A DNA stretch of 32,572 bases. Source: a virus. The stretch's first letter is position 1; every line of letters starts with the position of its first letter. The notes under the pieces are model-generated. The model searched no databases. It saw nothing but the letters and a program-made list of their open reading frames with translations, and was not told where the DNA came from. Made by a program: the position numbers and the translations under genes. Positions 3,427 through 14,322 of the stretch are shown one piece after another. The DNA lies in IMG/VR virus record IMGVR_UViG_3300042914_001571, positions 1 to 32,572 of that record; one strand, written 5' to 3'.

Positions 3427-3451
3427 CCCCGGCTTAGGCCGGGGTTTTTTT
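3427..3451 (+). terminator. Rho-independent terminator after the lysis cassette
   Basis: CCCCGGC, loop TTAG, GCCGGGG, then seven T. The seven-pair GC stem with U-tract ends plus-strand transcription from the lysis genes. It overlaps the last codons and the stop (3434-3436) of the converging recT-like gene. There is no A-run on the other side, so it is not obviously bidirectional. Confidence 0.85.
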
Positions 3452-4462
3452 CTCCGCTTCCTTTTCCTCCTCGGTCAGCTGCGCACCCAACGCCCTGATG
3501 CGTCGCCCGTACATCGAGATCAGTGCCGTCTTTTTGGTGAGTTCAACCCGCTGCAGGTTCTCCTCGTTCAGCTGGCGCAACTCCTTCAGGATGGTCATGC
3601 GCTCGCGCACCGGGCGCTTGCCTGCCCTGGCGGTCTTGTCAAACAGATCCTCCAGCGCAGCTGCCCAGTCATCCAAGCTGGCGAACACTGCGTGCGGCTC
3701 GGCCTTGCCAGGCACCATGATCGGCACGCCGTCTATCACATTGAGTTCTGCAGCAGGTTCTGCAGATTCTGCAGAATCGTTCTGCAAATCGGATTCGTCC
3801 AGGTCTGGCACATACTCGTCTACGGTCACTGCCTCGACCGGCTCAGGCTCCGGCAGGCTGGGCGGCGCGATCACATCCAGCGGGTTGGCTGGCATGGGCG
3901 TGACATCCTTGATCGGCCTGGGTTTGGCCTCGTCTGGATAGTCCTGCGCTTCCTCCGCGGTAATCAGCCCTTTGAGCACATCAGGAAAGGCATCGCGCAG
4001 GGCAAAGCCGCGAGCCCGCATCTGCAACATTCTTTTTGGGTACGCCTGCCAAGGGCCAGCCTTACCCCACAGCCCTGCCCGCCTTGCATCTTCAACACTG
4101 AAACGGACGATCACCGGGTTGCGCCCTTTGCGCCTGGCGATGCAGACGGCGACCGGGTTCGGTGTGCCTTCGCCCTCAATGCTTTCGTCAACGCCTTCGC
4201 AGACCGGGCTGGCCTGCACCAGCGCCATCGCTGCGTCACCGTACACGCTGGGCTTGCCGTTGATGACGGAGATATTCTGCAGCGCCTGCATGGGCTGCAA
4301 ACCAATTTCATATCCCCATTGAACTGCGACCATGATGTCCTCCGGCTTGCCCTGGTACTGCTTCGGCACCATCGCAGACTTCGACAGCATCTGGCTGAAC
4401 TCCATTGCCTCGCCCAGCGTGGCTGGTGCAAATCCCTGCCGGTTAGTTGTAGTCAGCTGCAT
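3434..4462 (-). CDS. RecT-family single-strand annealing protein
   Basis: A 342-residue protein. Residues 1-170 match the RecT-family core: an N-terminal segment ending …AMVPKQYQG, then GLQPMQALQNISVINGKPSVYGD (residues about 53-75), and later WGKAGPWQAYPKRMLQMRARGFALRDAFPDVLKG. Residues 185-260 are acidic and Pro-rich, a likely disordered linker, followed by a helical C-terminal part. RecT proteins bind ssDNA left by a 5'-3' exonuclease and anneal homologous strands; the YqaJ-type exonuclease two genes upstream is the expected partner. The start at 4462 is chosen because AGGAGG lies just upstream; a longer frame to 4498 has no such site. It overlaps the preceding gene by 20 bases. Confidence 0.9.
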   Translation of the reverse strand: MQLTTTNRQGFAPATLGEAMEFSQMLSKSAMVPKQYQGKPEDIMVAVQWGYEIGLQPMQALQNISVINGKPSVYGDAAMALVQASPVCEGVDESIEGEGTPNPVAVCIARRKGRNPVIVRFSVEDARRAGLWGKAGPWQAYPKRMLQMRARGFALRDAFPDVLKGLITAEEAQDYPDEAKPRPIKDVTPMPANPLDVIAPPSLPEPEPVEAVTVDEYVPDLDESDLQNDSAESAEPAAELNVIDGVPIMVPGKAEPHAVFASLDDWAAALEDLFDKTARAGKRPVRERMTILKELRQLNEENLQRVELTKKTALISMYGRRIRALGAQLTEEEKEAEKKTPA

Positions 4463-4628
4463 CGGCTTCCTCCTGGGCGTATTGCTTGAGTGTTTCAAAA
4501 ACGACTGCCATCAGTGCTTCAATCATTTCGCAGGCTTCGTCGTTCGACAGTTTTGGAATGTTTCCCATCAGCGCATTGACGGCGCGTGCGTGGGCAAGCT
4601 CGAGTGGGCGTAGGTCAAGTGTGTTCAT
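4443..4628 (-). CDS. Small helical protein between exonuclease and recT
   Basis: A 61-residue acidic, probably all-helical protein without membrane segment. Its ATG overlaps the exonuclease stop (ATGA), AAGGAA lies 5 bases upstream, and its end overlaps the recT start, so the three genes are translationally linked. No family recognised. It may be a modulator of the exonuclease-annealase pair, but this is inferred from position only. Confidence 0.7.
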   Translation of the reverse strand: MNTLDLRPLELAHARAVNALMGNIPKLSNDEACEMIEALMAVVFETLKQYAQEEADAADYN

Positions 4629-5578
4629 GCGATTTCCTTAACGGCAAGAGTAGATTGGCGAATGGTGTATGCGGCCTTTGCAGGCACTGTCTTTGCGGGC
4701 TGCGCTTGGTAATTACGCATCGGCCAGCGGATCTCAAACCGGCCTGCAATGCCTTTGCTGGCGGTGCCAAGCAATGCTTTCAGATCCTTTTCTGCATCCG
4801 CGCAATCCTTTGCGGCCTTGGTAATTGTGGCTTTTGCTGTTGCAATTTTTTCGGCCAGTAATTCAGCCTCAGTGTCGAGCTGCACGACCTTATCTTCAGC
4901 TGCTGGCCATAACCGATCAGCGTCCTCGCTTGTTGCTGGCGGGTAGTAATCAATCGTGCTGTCAGCGCGAAACCGCTCCAGCTTGTCTTGGAACTCCAGC
5001 ACCGCAGCCTTGATCGTTGCCAGCGTCTGGGCGTGCGGTTCAAACAGGAAGATGCGCAGCGCCGTGCCTTGGTACAGCACGCAGACTGCTCCCCACTTGG
5101 CAGACATGATGTCCATTTGTGCTTGCAGCTGGACGGGGCCGCGGTACAAAGCAGGTATTTCCTCAGGCGACACAGCTGTCAGCTTGGCTTCCAGCACGCC
5201 ATGACCTGCAAGCTCAATCTGCTCGGCACCAATGACGTAGATGCCTGCATCCTCGTCAGTGCGGATGATCTGCCCGCGACCATCAGCGTAACCATCAAGG
5301 CTGCAGCACAGCGGCAGGGTCGGGTGGTAGAAAGCCGCATTGAACTCGGTGGCCAGCTCGGACAGCTGCAGGCGCTCGGCGGCTTCATTAAGAATCAGCG
5401 CCTCAAGGCGGTCGCCCCAGCGCATAGATTCATTGGACTTATCCTCGCGCTCGTTGCCTTTAATGGCGTTGATGCTGTATACGAGCTCGTCGTTCGGGGT
5501 GGCGTACCGAGACAGGCCTAGCAGGGCAGGCAATCGGGACGCAGACATGATGTCATCGGGGGTTTTCTTACCAGCCAT
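4625..5578 (-). CDS. YqaJ-type phage exonuclease (lambda Exo-like fold)
   Basis: A 317-residue nuclease of the PD-(D/E)XK superfamily expected to resect double-stranded ends 5'-3' to give ssDNA for the RecT protein. Visible motifs, counted from MAGKKTP: SRLPALLGLSRY (14-25), WGDRLEALI with Glu59, SLDGYAD with Asp95, VLEAKL with Glu130 and Lys132 (the active-site E-x-K), and VQLQAQMDIM with the conserved Gln-rich helix (149-158). The start at 5578 has GGAGG upstream and shares a base with the stop of the preceding gene (TAATG). A coiled-coil-like stretch at about 245-290 is followed by a basic C-terminus. Confidence 0.9.
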   Translation of the reverse strand: MAGKKTPDDIMSASRLPALLGLSRYATPNDELVYSINAIKGNEREDKSNESMRWGDRLEALILNEAAERLQLSELATEFNAAFYHPTLPLCCSLDGYADGRGQIIRTDEDAGIYVIGAEQIELAGHGVLEAKLTAVSPEEIPALYRGPVQLQAQMDIMSAKWGAVCVLYQGTALRIFLFEPHAQTLATIKAAVLEFQDKLERFRADSTIDYYPPATSEDADRLWPAAEDKVVQLDTEAELLAEKIATAKATITKAAKDCADAEKDLKALLGTASKGIAGRFEIRWPMRNYQAQPAKTVPAKAAYTIRQSTLAVKEIA

Positions 5579-5877
5579 TAGTTTTCCTCCGTGAGTTTGT
5601 AGACGCGCACAACGCGGGCGTGAGCCGCCTTGTGGGTGGCCTCGGTGTAACCAACCGGGGTAAATTTTTTTGATTTGAAAACAGCCCCAAGGACACTGGG
5701 GTGCATTTCTGAGGGCAAGCGCAGCTGTGCTCTTATGTCGTTGATGCACACCGTGCCTTGTTGGCGGGCGATCTCAACGGCTAGTGCTCGGCAGCGACAC
5801 AGGAACTCTGTGTCTCTGTGCTCAAAAAGCGTCAGCTGGGCATCGCGCAGGGCGCGACCCAAAGTGGCGGCTTCCAT
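5578..5877 (-). CDS. Small winged-helix-like phage protein
   Basis: A 99-residue protein with an N-terminal helix pair and a C-terminal part (…VCINDIRAQLRLP…VLGAVFKSKKFTPVGY…VRVYKL) that resembles the compact winged-helix fold seen in small phage early proteins. A G-rich ribosome site precedes the ATG. It is directly upstream of, and overlapping with, the exonuclease gene. DNA binding is plausible but not proven; the specific role is unknown. Confidence 0.75.
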   Translation of the reverse strand: MEAATLGRALRDAQLTLFEHRDTEFLCRCRALAVEIARQQGTVCINDIRAQLRLPSEMHPSVLGAVFKSKKFTPVGYTEATHKAAHARVVRVYKLTEEN

Positions 5878-6558: not shown

Positions 6559-6780
6559 TCACTCAGCAATATCTCGATCAGCAAACTGCTCGATCAGCCT
6601 GTTTTTTTCGGCTGCAACGCGTTGCTGGCGGCGCTTGGCTGCTTTCCTAAGCAGAACTACAGCAACAAATGGGCCGGTTAAGTACACGCCAAATGCCCAC
6701 TCAAGGCCAATCAAATAAGCCAGGCCGAAATAGCTGGCAAAGAAAGCCAGCACCAGCAACGCTGGTATGAATTTGTCCAT
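6559..6780 (-). CDS. Small two-span membrane protein
   Basis: A 73-residue protein with two hydrophobic segments (about residues 5-23 and 27-45) and a basic, helical C-terminal tail (KAAKRRQQR…) expected in the cytoplasm. Its ATG shares a base with the stop of the recombinase gene (TAATG), with AAGGA 9 bases upstream, so it is co-translated with the recombinase. No family recognised. An early membrane function such as superinfection exclusion would be compatible, but there is no direct evidence. Confidence 0.7.
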   Translation of the reverse strand: MDKFIPALLVLAFFASYFGLAYLIGLEWAFGVYLTGPFVAVVLLRKAAKRRQQRVAAEKNRLIEQFADRDIAE

Positions 6781-7460
6781 TACTTGATCCTTTTCAGCAG
6801 GTTGCTGACCTGGCTGGCACGCCAGTCAGTGTTGCCGCGGGGGGTTTCAACACCGCGAGCGGTCAGTGCTGCGGCGATCTCGCGCAGGGCGCCAGAACCG
6901 GTCTTGCGGATGATGTCTCGCACGACGGGGCCGACGCGCTCTGCATAAGCGTCAGCGTTGGCTTTCAGAACCTTCACGCCCTCGGCGCTGCCGATCTCAG
7001 GCGATGGGCTGCCAAGTTTTTTGCCCTGGCGCTTTAAGGCCTGCAGCGCAGCGCTGGTGCGCTCGCTGATGCGGCGTGCTTCATCTTCGGCAAACACCGC
7101 CACCATTTGCAAATAGACGCGATTAGCGTGCGGTGTGTCAGCGCAGACAAAGCGCACATTGCCGTTCAATAAAGTGCTGATGAACTGAACGTCACGCGCC
7201 AGGCGGTCAAGCTTGGCGACAACCAGCGTGGCTTTCTGTTTACGGGCGAGCTCGAGCGCTGCCTTGAGCATTGGACGGTTCTTGAGGCGCTTGCGGGTGC
7301 CGGACTCAATCTCGGTGAATTCACCAATGACAGACCAGCGGCCTCCATTGAGGTAATTGCGAACCAGCTCTTGCTGTGCTTCAAGGCCAAGGCCGGAGCG
7401 GCCCTGCTTGTCTGTTGATACGCGGTAGTAGGCGACAAATTTGCCAGTGTGCGGTGCCAT
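6780..7460 (-). CDS. Small serine recombinase (resolvase/invertase family)
   Basis: A 226-residue site-specific recombinase. The N-terminal catalytic domain shows YYRVSTDKQ with nucleophile Ser15, the GLGLEAQ helix and VAKLDRLARD (81-90) with the catalytic Arg positions. Residues 95-140 carry the (V/L)CAD…N and ISER-type E-helix region, and the C-terminus (REIAAALTARGVETPRG…VSNLLKR) is a short helix-turn-helix DNA-binding domain. The length fits resolvases and invertases, not large serine integrases. The start at 7460 has AGGAG 7 bases upstream. It is the first gene of the leftward block. Its substrate site is not identified: it could invert, resolve multimers or integrate. Confidence 0.92.
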   Translation of the reverse strand: MAPHTGKFVAYYRVSTDKQGRSGLGLEAQQELVRNYLNGGRWSVIGEFTEIESGTRKRLKNRPMLKAALELARKQKATLVVAKLDRLARDVQFISTLLNGNVRFVCADTPHANRVYLQMVAVFAEDEARRISERTSAALQALKRQGKKLGSPSPEIGSAEGVKVLKANADAYAERVGPVVRDIIRKTGSGALREIAAALTARGVETPRGNTDWRASQVSNLLKRIK

Positions 7461-7487
7461 GTTTCGACTCCTGTTTCTCGGTGGTCG

Positions 7488-7503
7488 CGGTTTGAAGTAA
7501 CCG
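7488..7503. promoter_or_regulatory. Operator-like palindrome at the leftward start site
   Basis: CGGTT, TGAAGT, AACCG. It begins 9 bases downstream of the leftward -10 box, so it would cover the transcription start. Almost the same sequence (CGGTT-TGAAT-AACCG) occurs at 6047-6061. A binding site for the ribbon-helix-helix protein encoded at 7642 is a reasonable guess. Confidence 0.5.
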
Positions 7504-7512
7504 TTCCCGCAA

Positions 7513-7539
7513 TGTATATCGCGGTGAAACACCTGTCAA
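7513..7539 (-). promoter_or_regulatory. Leftward sigma-70-type promoter
   Basis: On the minus strand, a perfect -35 TTGACA (7539-7534) and -10 TATACA (7518-7513), separated by 15 bases (short of the optimal 17). It lies 53 bases upstream of the recombinase start and should drive the leftward early block. Confidence 0.6.
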
Positions 7540-9683: not shown

Positions 9684-10021
9684 TTACATTGACCAGAGAG
9701 GAAGCGCAGGAGGTTCTGGAAGCCTTTGAAGGCGTATTTGAGGGCGATGACAAGGGCGCGGAGTTTTGGACGGTATACGGCGGCACCTTCGAGGCTGTTT
9801 ATTGCATGAACGCAATGCGCCTGCTTCGCGCCAAGCTGGCCGCATGGACACCTGACGACACGGCGTACAGGCCGGGAGGATTGCCGCAGCCTGAACGCCA
9901 GTGGCAGGGACTGACAGAGCAGGAGCACGCCAATATTGCTGTTGAGGCTGGTTGCGCGTCAGCTGACTGGGTGTTTTATGGCGCGGCAGTAGAACGGGCG
10001 CTGAAGGAAAAAAACAGGTGA
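9680..10021 (+). CDS. Unknown acidic early protein
   Basis: A 113-residue protein. The N-terminal half is helical and acidic; the C-terminal half (WQGLTEQEHANIAVEAGC… FYGAAVERALKEKN) resembles a short module found at the end of many small phage early proteins. ATG overlaps the previous stop and its own TGA overlaps the initiator GTG. Position directly before the initiator gene suggests a replication-linked role, but this is inference. Confidence 0.75.
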   Translation: MITLTREEAQEVLEAFEGVFEGDDKGAEFWTVYGGTFEAVYCMNAMRLLRAKLAAWTPDDTAYRPGGLPQPERQWQGLTEQEHANIAVEAGCASADWVFYGAAVERALKEKNR

Positions 10022-10941
10022 GCGCCCTACCCTCAAACGTCGTGGACTTTAAGCTACCCAAAAAGCCCAAGGTCAGGGAGAAAGAGGAGCAGCCGTTTCA
10101 GAAAAAGTACGCGGTGATCCCTGCTCGAGCAATCCACGACCCTGCCATCACGCACGGGATGCTCAAGGTTTTGCTGGCTCTGTGCAGTTACACCAACCGG
10201 GCTGGCATCACCTGGGTCAGCCAGAAGCGGCTCGCTCAGGATTTCAAGGTCAGTCGGCAGTCGATCACCAGGCAGCTGACAAAGCTCAGAGACTTGGGGT
10301 ACGTCACCATTGCCAGCAAGGGATTCAGGGGCGAGCGGTCAAACACCTTGCAGGTCATTTTCGACCCCAGCGTCACAGCCGAGGATGCCGTGGCCATCAC
10401 CAGCAGCATTGAGGATACAAGGTCGCCAACCATGAAACAGAACGATGCCAAGCTGGCAGCAGACGGACTGCCAGACCTGAGCCCAGAACAGATCCGCGCC
10501 AACAAGATCAGACTGGCTGAAATGTTGTCAGGACTGAACATGAACGGGAACATCAAGCACTCTCAACCAAGACCAATAGGGGAAATCATGGGCAACAAAA
10601 AGACAGTCCATAGGCAACACCAAGAGGTAGCCAATGAACAGCCTCCCATAGGCAACCAAAAAGGCTCTCATAGGCAACCTCATAGGCAACGTCAAGAGGT
10701 TGCCCAGAAGATCGAAGTAGAAGGTAATAGAAGGTTATTTATAAAAATAATTGAAAGAGAATTAAAAGTAACTTTAAACAATGAACTGACAATGAAATTA
10801 ATTGACAGTGGTATAACTGACAATGAGTTATGCGCAACCTGTCAGACGCTGCTGTCAAAACAGCAAGCGGAGGGTCTGGGCATCCCGCAGGGCGAGGAGC
10901 TGCTGCTGGCACTGCTGACCATATCTGCAGACCAGCTGTGA
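10018..10941 (+). CDS. Replication initiator-like protein with winged-helix domain
   Basis: A 307-residue protein whose N-terminal half is a helix-turn-helix/winged-helix domain of the phage replication-initiator type (about residues 30-117: MLKVLLALCSYTNRAG… VSQKRLAQDFKVSRQSITRQLTKLRDLGYV). The middle (about 185-240) is Gln/His/Arg-rich and looks disordered; the DNA coding for it contains five iteron-like repeats. The C-terminal 65 residues are coded by AT-rich DNA. This resembles lambda O, where the origin lies in the initiator gene. No helicase or loader gene is visible in this window, so host DnaB recruitment is inferred. The GTG start overlaps the previous stop (GTGA). Confidence 0.8.
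   Translation: MSALPSNVVDFKLPKKPKVREKEEQPFQKKYAVIPARAIHDPAITHGMLKVLLALCSYTNRAGITWVSQKRLAQDFKVSRQSITRQLTKLRDLGYVTIASKGFRGERSNTLQVIFDPSVTAEDAVAITSSIEDTRSPTMKQNDAKLAADGLPDLSPEQIRANKIRLAEMLSGLNMNGNIKHSQPRPIGEIMGNKKTVHRQHQEVANEQPPIGNQKGSHRQPHRQRQEVAQKIEVEGNRRLFIKIIERELKVTLNNELTMKLIDSGITDNELCATCQTLLSKQQAEGLGIPQGEELLLALLTISADQL
10587..10830 (+). other. Putative replication origin: iterons and AT-rich stretch inside the initiator gene
   Basis: CATAGGCAAC occurs at 10609, 10647, 10669 and 10681, with CATGGGCAAC at 10587 and an inverted GGTTGCC at 10698. Spacings are 22, 38, 22 and 12 bases. The copies fall in two reading frames (read as IGN/MGN or HRQ), so the conservation is at DNA level. A strongly AT-rich segment follows (about 10719-10830), containing a 12-base direct repeat AACTGACAATGA (10784 and 10815). 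This is the layout of an iteron origin with a DNA-unwinding element. Confidence 0.75.
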
Positions 10942-11292
10942 AATGGCGATGCCGTTTCCGCGGGTTCTAAGGTACCTACAAGGCGAGATCATGGGTCGGG
11001 TAATAGGCAGACATGGGTGGACAGGAAAAACGGCTTACAGAGCGTTTAAAGCGGTCTGTCCAAAAACCATACGTCCGTCGGGTATCTGGACAGGCAGGGG
11101 GGTCAAGGGGTGTCTGGTCGGAGCTCGGCCTGGCGCGGGCTGGTTGGACAAACGGTCGCGGTGGCTGGCGGCTGGCAGTCAGTTGCCGAAAGGGCACCTT
11201 TCCCCCCTCCCCCTCGCCTGTGCGTTGCGGGGGCCACACCAAAATTTTTCTGACTATTTGCCCCGATGGGGTTTTTGACTGGAGGTAGCAAG
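10942..11292 (+). other. 351-base gap without a confident gene
   Basis: Two overlapping frames exist here (starting 10943 and 11013), but neither has a good ribosome site or a recognisable protein, and both end in low-complexity Pro/Ser/Arg sequence. The stretch contains four copies of TGGACA (11018, 11055 inverted, 11087, 11145), a pyrimidine-rich tract near 11200-11220, and a weak terminator-like hairpin at 11261-11276. It may be a regulatory or origin-associated region, or encode a small RNA. Confidence 0.5.
11261..11276 (+). terminator. Weak terminator-like hairpin
   Basis: CCCC, GAT, GGGG followed by TTTTT. The stem is only four pairs with a tight loop, so termination would be partial at best. 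It lies 17 bases before the SSB-like gene. Confidence 0.35.
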
Positions 11293-13806: not shown

Positions 13807-13823
13807 GCAATCACATTGATTGC
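13807..13823. promoter_or_regulatory. Palindrome in the terL-cupin gap
   Basis: GCAATCA, CAT, TGATTGC: perfect seven-base arms in the 59-base gap before the cupin-like gene. A TTGATT within it and a TAGAAT at 13842 resemble promoter boxes, but their spacing of 20 bases is too wide to claim a promoter. Confidence 0.35.
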
Positions 13824-13854
13824 CCAGTGTCCAACTTTCAATAGAATCCTTTGC

Positions 13855-14322
13855 ATGAGCGACTTGATAAGCGCGGATGACGCAAAGCAGCTGATCTCAG
13901 GCTTTGCCACAAAGTCTGTGCGCGATCAGGTCATGAACATTCAGGCGTGGATGGTAGAGCAGCCGCAGGTCGATGTGCCGATTGAACACTGGTTTGCGCA
14001 TGGCTTGTATGTGCGGCAGATGAGGATGCCAGCAGGTCAGGCGTTTGTGGGGAAGATCCACAAGTCTGAGCACATCGTCATCATCGCGCAGGGCTGCATC
14101 ACGCTGCTAACCGATGAAGGCGTGGTAAAGCTGCAGGCTCCAGCGACGTTTGTGTCCAAGCCTGGTGCCAAGCGCGTGGGCTTTGTGCATGAGGACTTGG
14201 TGATGCTGAACGTGCATCACTCGTTTGAGACTGACATGGAAAAGCTGGAACAGGAGCTGATCGCTCCTGACTTTGCAGAGCTTGATTCCTATTTGGAACT
14301 GTTGAAATTGAAGGAGAAATAA
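13855..14322 (+). CDS. Cupin-like phage protein
   Basis: About 155 residues from ATG 13855; a start at 13816 is also open, and neither has a clear ribosome site. The middle has the strand-rich pattern of a cupin (LYVRQMRMPAGQAFVGKIHKSEHIVIIAQG… KLQAPATFVSKPGAKRVGFVHED). Similar proteins occur in podoviruses between terminase and portal genes. Whether it is enzymatic or structural is unknown; the metal-binding histidine set of enzymatic cupins is only partly present (His in KIHKSEH and VHED). Confidence 0.7.
   Translation: MSDLISADDAKQLISGFATKSVRDQVMNIQAWMVEQPQVDVPIEHWFAHGLYVRQMRMPAGQAFVGKIHKSEHIVIIAQGCITLLTDEGVVKLQAPATFVSKPGAKRVGFVHEDLVMLNVHHSFETDMEKLEQELIAPDFAELDSYLELLKLKEK

Follow-up and report, generated by a model that had tools for sequence, protein, structure and literature searches.

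In bacteriophage lambda the origin of replication consists of iterons and an AT-rich tract located in the middle of the O gene (PMC7466680), and two O molecules bind each of the four iterons, which are inverted repeats of 18 bp (PMC6022878). Among plasmids with RepA_N initiators, pSK41 has its ori inside rep and the winged helix binds the repeats, while the chimeric pPR9 differs from pSK41 in N-terminal domain and origin as one block, the domain being pfam13730 (PMC5703833). Closely related geminiviruses have different iterons, and the parts of Rep that interact with these appear to change along with them (PMC12548392). The DNA analysed here, in the following called the window, is the complete 32,572-bp viral record IMGVR_UViG_3300042914_001571. 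Judged from sequence comparison, its repeats, the surrounding initiator gene and an AT-rich stretch very probably constitute a phage replication origin inside its own initiator gene, on a plan of the lambda O type. This plan had been proposed in an earlier note on the window, and it is supported by the matches of the gene product to initiator and O-like families and by a dip in GC content in 50 related loci.

As in lambda O and the lambdoid phages, the putative origin lies in the middle of the initiator gene, the inverted repeats are interrupted, the AT-rich stretch follows directly behind, and the number of sites varies among relatives, adding residues to the protein (PMC7466680, PMC6022878). 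Unlike in lambda, paired and single half-sites are mixed, one more half-site is located beyond the AT-rich stretch, and the gene after the initiator is no recognised helicase loader. The protein itself differs from lambda O in having O-like matches among the PHROG families only and none to the Pfam phage replication protein O family (E up to 0.1). With pPR9 the initiator shares the Pfam type, pfam13730; unlike the RepA_N initiators, which belong to plasmids and not to a phage, it had no Pfam match to the RepA_N domain (E up to 0.1), and its fold matches were weak. The comparison with geminivirus Rep is limited by the fact that this is an unrelated, rolling-circle initiator with iterons upstream of the gene, not internal. 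The intragenic plan of the origin is already known and is found here in a new family. A rule linking one residue to one base in a phage initiator with internal sites was not found in the literature searched, mostly outside subscription journals; the rule and the paired swaps described below are probably, though not certainly, new.

Iteron array of the window

The positions of all features are presented in Table 1. The word CATRGGCAAC occurs five times in the window, at the places given in the earlier note, all inside 104 bases and with no copy elsewhere. None of 100 dinucleotide shuffles contained five copies (mean expected 0.15), and in 20,000 synonymous recodings of the gene with the codon usage of the phage three or more copies were never obtained, the maximum being two; thus, the array is not explained by the codons that this protein needs. 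The inverted GGTTGCC reported behind the repeats is present, and a weaker inverted copy, GGTAGCC at 10626-10632, had gone unmentioned. Together with half-sites on the plus strand these copies form two interrupted palindromes, GGCAAC-N8-GTAGCC (imperfect) and GGCAAC-N8-GTTGCC, and the remaining half-sites are single. The description as a simple array of direct repeats had to be given up: the unit is a half-site, some copies of which pair into interrupted palindromes, so that the array looks like a mix of paired and single half-sites.

Table 1 Features of the initiator gene and its putative origin in the window
Feature	Position	Strand	Remarks
Initiator gene	10018..10941	+	307 aa, GTG start; winged helix, disordered linker (predicted), helical C-terminal domain
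Recognition helix, residues 80-93	10255..10296	+	AlphaFold2 model; codon 10255-10257 = Arg80, proposed base-reading residue
Half-site 1	10587..10596	+	CATGGGCAAC
Half-site 2	10609..10618	+	CATAGGCAAC; left arm, imperfect palindrome 1
Inverted half-site	10626..10636	-	GGTAGCCAATG (reverse CATTGGCTACC); right arm, palindrome 1
Half-site 3	10647..10656	+	CATAGGCAAC
Half-site 4	10669..10678	+	CATAGGCAAC
Half-site 5	10681..10690	+	CATAGGCAAC; left arm of palindrome 2 (GGCAAC-N8-GTTGCC); 12-nt unit
Inverted half-site GGTTGCC	10698..10704	-	right arm, palindrome 2
AT-rich stretch, presumed unwinding element	10738..10797	.	18% GC (composition)
Distal half-site, beyond AT-rich stretch	10832..10839	+	GCGCAACC; position and residue-80 rule shared with relatives

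The copies at 10587 and 10647 translate as MGN/IGN and those at 10609, 10669 and 10681 as HRQ, an assignment that was correct as claimed and from which selection on the DNA had been deduced. The copies are spaced by 22, 38, 22 and 12 nt, presenting a 60-nt module (10587-10632 and 10647-10704) plus an extra 12-nt unit. The pairs 10587+10609 and 10647+10669 look like a 60-nt duplication that preserved the frame, and the 12-nt unit of the 10681 copy, missing from the close relatives L005 and L006, is also frame-preserving. Since both steps keep the frame, the window alone offers one case of a word used in two frames, not five, and the deduction rests there on a single 22-nt spacing. It is sustained by the relatives, in which half-sites with the correct word occur in every one of the three frames, whether residue 80 is Arg, Gln or Lys, with both strands used.

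The AT-rich stretch is located directly behind the repeats, as the earlier note had stated, and the dip recurs in the 50 related loci: the mean GC content decreased from about 0.50 to 0.35 at 20-80 nt behind the last palindrome and then rose to 0.57-0.60. The GC skew of the window had no inflection at 10.6 kb and is uninformative on the origin, because most genes run rightward.

Relatives and the base before the core

In seven scans of viral contigs, at least about 170 loci proved to carry a relative of the initiator gene, one scan contributing 80 kept loci of 189 confirmed relatives, and the loci were grouped into 57 clusters of distinct linkers. A DNA search of a phage collection gave no match. 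The sole match of a protein search in phage records was gp55 of Methylophilales phage MEP301, weak and over 40% of the protein, and the array is absent from MEP301, so that the search gave no cultured phage with this array. No relative was confirmed in genome contigs, i.e., possible prophages, and in plasmids the matches were limited to distant helix-turn-helix proteins from Azospirillum and Skermanella (27-33% identity among the matches listed).

In most relatives the array is found at the same place with a clade-specific word: GGCAACC, GCAACC, ACAACC, TCAACC, GGACAC/GGAAAC or GGTAACC. The outcome that the earlier note had named as speaking against its reading, a protein kept while the DNA repeats are lost, is contradicted by this pattern, since most relatives keep the array and the word changes with the recognition helix. 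Palindromic pairs are much clearer in the relatives than in the window: CAAC-N6..8-GTTG had 92 occurrences over 34.5 kb of array DNA versus 11 in the remaining 370 kb of the same loci. Palindromes were counted by fixed-core scans; a relaxed scan with variable core was too noisy. Weak or degenerate arrays were found in L053, L166 and L061, the last a distant AT-rich outlier. The core spacing k in CAACC-Nk-GGTTG was mostly 6, but members of the SQQAVAKQF clade have a k of 4 and those of the L118 group a k of 5; the dimer geometry may differ by clade.

Palindromes were picked by their core only (CAACC-N2..10-GGTTG), blind to the protein, and the preceding base was tabulated against residue 80. 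The arms had a G with Arg80 in 27 of 28 cases, an A with Gln80 in 110 of 110 and a T with Lys80 in 12 of 16, the other four being A; these counts include several arms per locus and several clusters per clade, which are not independent of one another. A looser core yielded 36 of 38, 123 of 126 and 14 of 18, respectively, the Lys class being the least clean of the three. The pattern was absent from CAAC words in the 5' portion of these genes. Among the 307 alignment columns residue 80 was the best predictor of the majority base (43 of 43 clusters), with a normalised mutual information of 0.89 versus 0.29 for S108, the best column outside the array; the columns next in rank, G212, A229, R223 and Q226, are the translated array themselves. 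The distal half-site follows the rule with G at 10 of 10 Arg80 loci, A at 17 of 17 Gln80 loci (three hits inside the array itself) and T at 2 of 2 Lys80 loci; its base is a middle codon position, so the protein changes with the word. This match of one residue to one base points to the winged helix as reader of the array. Further pairings are each limited to a single lineage or a few: GGTAACC is found with Pro81 (L062-L064) and GGACAC/GGAAAC with Asn85 (the group of L009, L010, L012, L136, L138 and L143), so the core may be read by residues 81 and 85. L053, with Glu80, had an A in its single palindrome.

The words and residue 80 may have been inherited together in clades without any direct contact. 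Several alignment columns are clade-specific, and on a tree from which the recognition helix had been left out, residue 80 changed about 4-7 times, depending on the rows counted. With so few independent switches the phylogenetic statistics are weak; at most three independent pairs were available on the tree, too few for significance, and as this test is underpowered, support for the residue-base link comes from the column ranking, the mosaics and the loci fetched later. All three argue against mere co-inheritance. Residue 80 was far ahead of every column outside the array, and it opens the recognition helix. Arginine to guanine and glutamine to adenine are common contact preferences. An A was predicted for the relatives of L113, a Gln80 locus whose sequence ends before the array, and was present in 10 of 10 arms of the later-fetched L181 and L182 (Gln80), where L182 is without the recognition helix and overlaps L113 at 100% over 53 residues.

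The mosaics are pairs of loci in which helix and array change together on a shared background. L009 (Arg80, GGAAAC/GGACAC) and L118 (Gln80, ACAACC) have a DNA identity of 98% in the N-terminus, 66% in the winged helix and 94% over the 300 nt that separate it from the array; the array itself is 47% identical and the C-terminus 91%. For the same five segments in order, the values were 99, 55, 71, 57 and 89% between L069 (Arg) and L153 (Lys), and 84, 60, 79, 55 and 79% between L008 (Arg) and L181 (Gln). A divergence of helix and array around better-kept DNA fits a paired exchange or a paired change, and inheritance in clades without contact is considered unlikely. The locus is probably a self-contained specificity cassette in which residue 80 reads one iteron base, and in which exchange or change affects winged helix and array jointly around a conserved block; this would give several replication specificities, without cross-reaction expected between coexisting phages. 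If the rule is true, a change in the replication specificity of a phage, with protein and sites altered jointly, would be addressable by one substitution, and origin words would be predictable from the initiator sequence in uncultured phages. The rule also hints at the coexisting phages whose origins could be shared or subject to mutual interference.

Initiation, regulation and the translated array

The initiator matched HTH_36 (PF13730) at 9.2e-11, with 41.8 bits versus a curated cut-off of 25, and several PHROG families of replication initiation and O-like proteins (best 1.8e-10; O-like 4.5e-8 to 8e-5). A profile search of solved structures yielded generic transcription-regulator helices only. 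The fold search revealed similarity to MarR-type repressors; 5kbj, a 'Rep-DNA complex', and 4pt7, an 'initiator', both of RepA_N proteins, were among the matches, none of which had an E below 0.001. The AlphaFold2 model had a mean pLDDT of 68.5, and with a pTM of 0.38 its domain arrangement is not reliable. Segment 174-229 was below pLDDT 50 and covers the translated array (about 190-229), which is thus predicted to be disordered.

For replication, the winged helix would bind GGCAAC half-sites until the array is occupied, and where these are inverted pairs it would presumably do so as a dimer. Once the array is filled, the adjoining AT-rich stretch would open, and the distal half-site beyond it may help to place the opening. 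The helical C-terminal domain would then presumably recruit the host helicase; host recruitment is presumed because no helicase or polymerase, nor a primase, was recognised among the 30 phage proteins searched. In this scheme we infer that the protein binds, that the stretch opens, that a helicase is recruited and that the locus is active as an origin, the helicase step from the gene set alone.

A protein of this kind could instead act on transcription. DNA binding by HTH_36 domains is general, MarR-type repressors have a similar fold, and the residue-base rule speaks for reading of the array, not for initiation; the array could be an operator by which the protein controls its own gene, with replication starting elsewhere. 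This is very unlikely in view of the PHROG matches, which are replication initiation proteins, and of the large helical C-terminal domain carried by most family members. In addition, the array lies about 570 nt inside the gene and is followed by the AT-rich stretch and a further half-site, which is the layout of ori-lambda (PMC7466680).

An origin within the initiator gene requires that one stretch of DNA is both protein code and binding site. In about 170 relatives this conflict appears to be resolved by a disordered linker able to accept any residues that the sites encode and, within one clade, by a gene that ends before the array. In L059 the initiator gene (5001-5468) encodes 158 aa; its stop codon TAG is itself part of CATAGGCAACC, and the array CATAGGCAACCACATAGGCAACCAGCAGGTTGCC continues behind the stop. 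Frame 1 of L059 is open across the array, and the C-terminal domain of the family is continued in none of its frames. In L062-L064, three contigs of one architecture, the gene stops before the array, and five half-sites of the GGTAACC type follow. All four are short initiators without the C-terminal domain. The array is kept where the frame no longer covers the sites, which supports the claim of the earlier note that the origin gave rise to the Gln/His/Arg-rich protein segment as a by-product; together with the predicted disorder, the segment has to be seen most likely as a by-product of the DNA sites. That a tandemly duplicated HRQ/IGN peptide was kept for the protein, as the frame-preserving 60-nt and 12-nt duplications of the window might suggest, is extremely improbable, given the word in all three frames and on both strands in the relatives, the failure of synonymous recodings to yield three copies, the predicted disorder of the linker and, in contradiction to it, the persistence of the array in untranslated DNA.

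Neighbouring genes

The neighbourhood of the initiator gene encodes a single-strand-binding-like protein, the small and large subunits of the terminase, RecE/RecT, an endolysin, and head, connector, tail and internal virion proteins. Between the initiator gene and the gene of the single-strand-binding-like protein, the ORF 10943-11278 had no profile match above the cut-off. A motif in this region of the window (10943-11290), GGTAATAGGCAGACATGGGT, recurs in 33 of 182 loci, and an inverted repeat is located at 11056-11093; as the terminase genes follow, a packaging or regulatory site is possible there. A serine recombinase is encoded on the minus strand at 6780-7532 (Resolvase, 7.2e-27), thus the phage may be temperate. 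Also on the minus strand, a RecT-like annealing protein and a RecE-like exonuclease form a pair (3434-5749) that could promote the mosaic exchanges of the family. A short gene similar to tail fibres or adhesins (13816-14322; PHROG, 1.4e-45) is located directly behind the large terminase gene, apart from the other tail genes.
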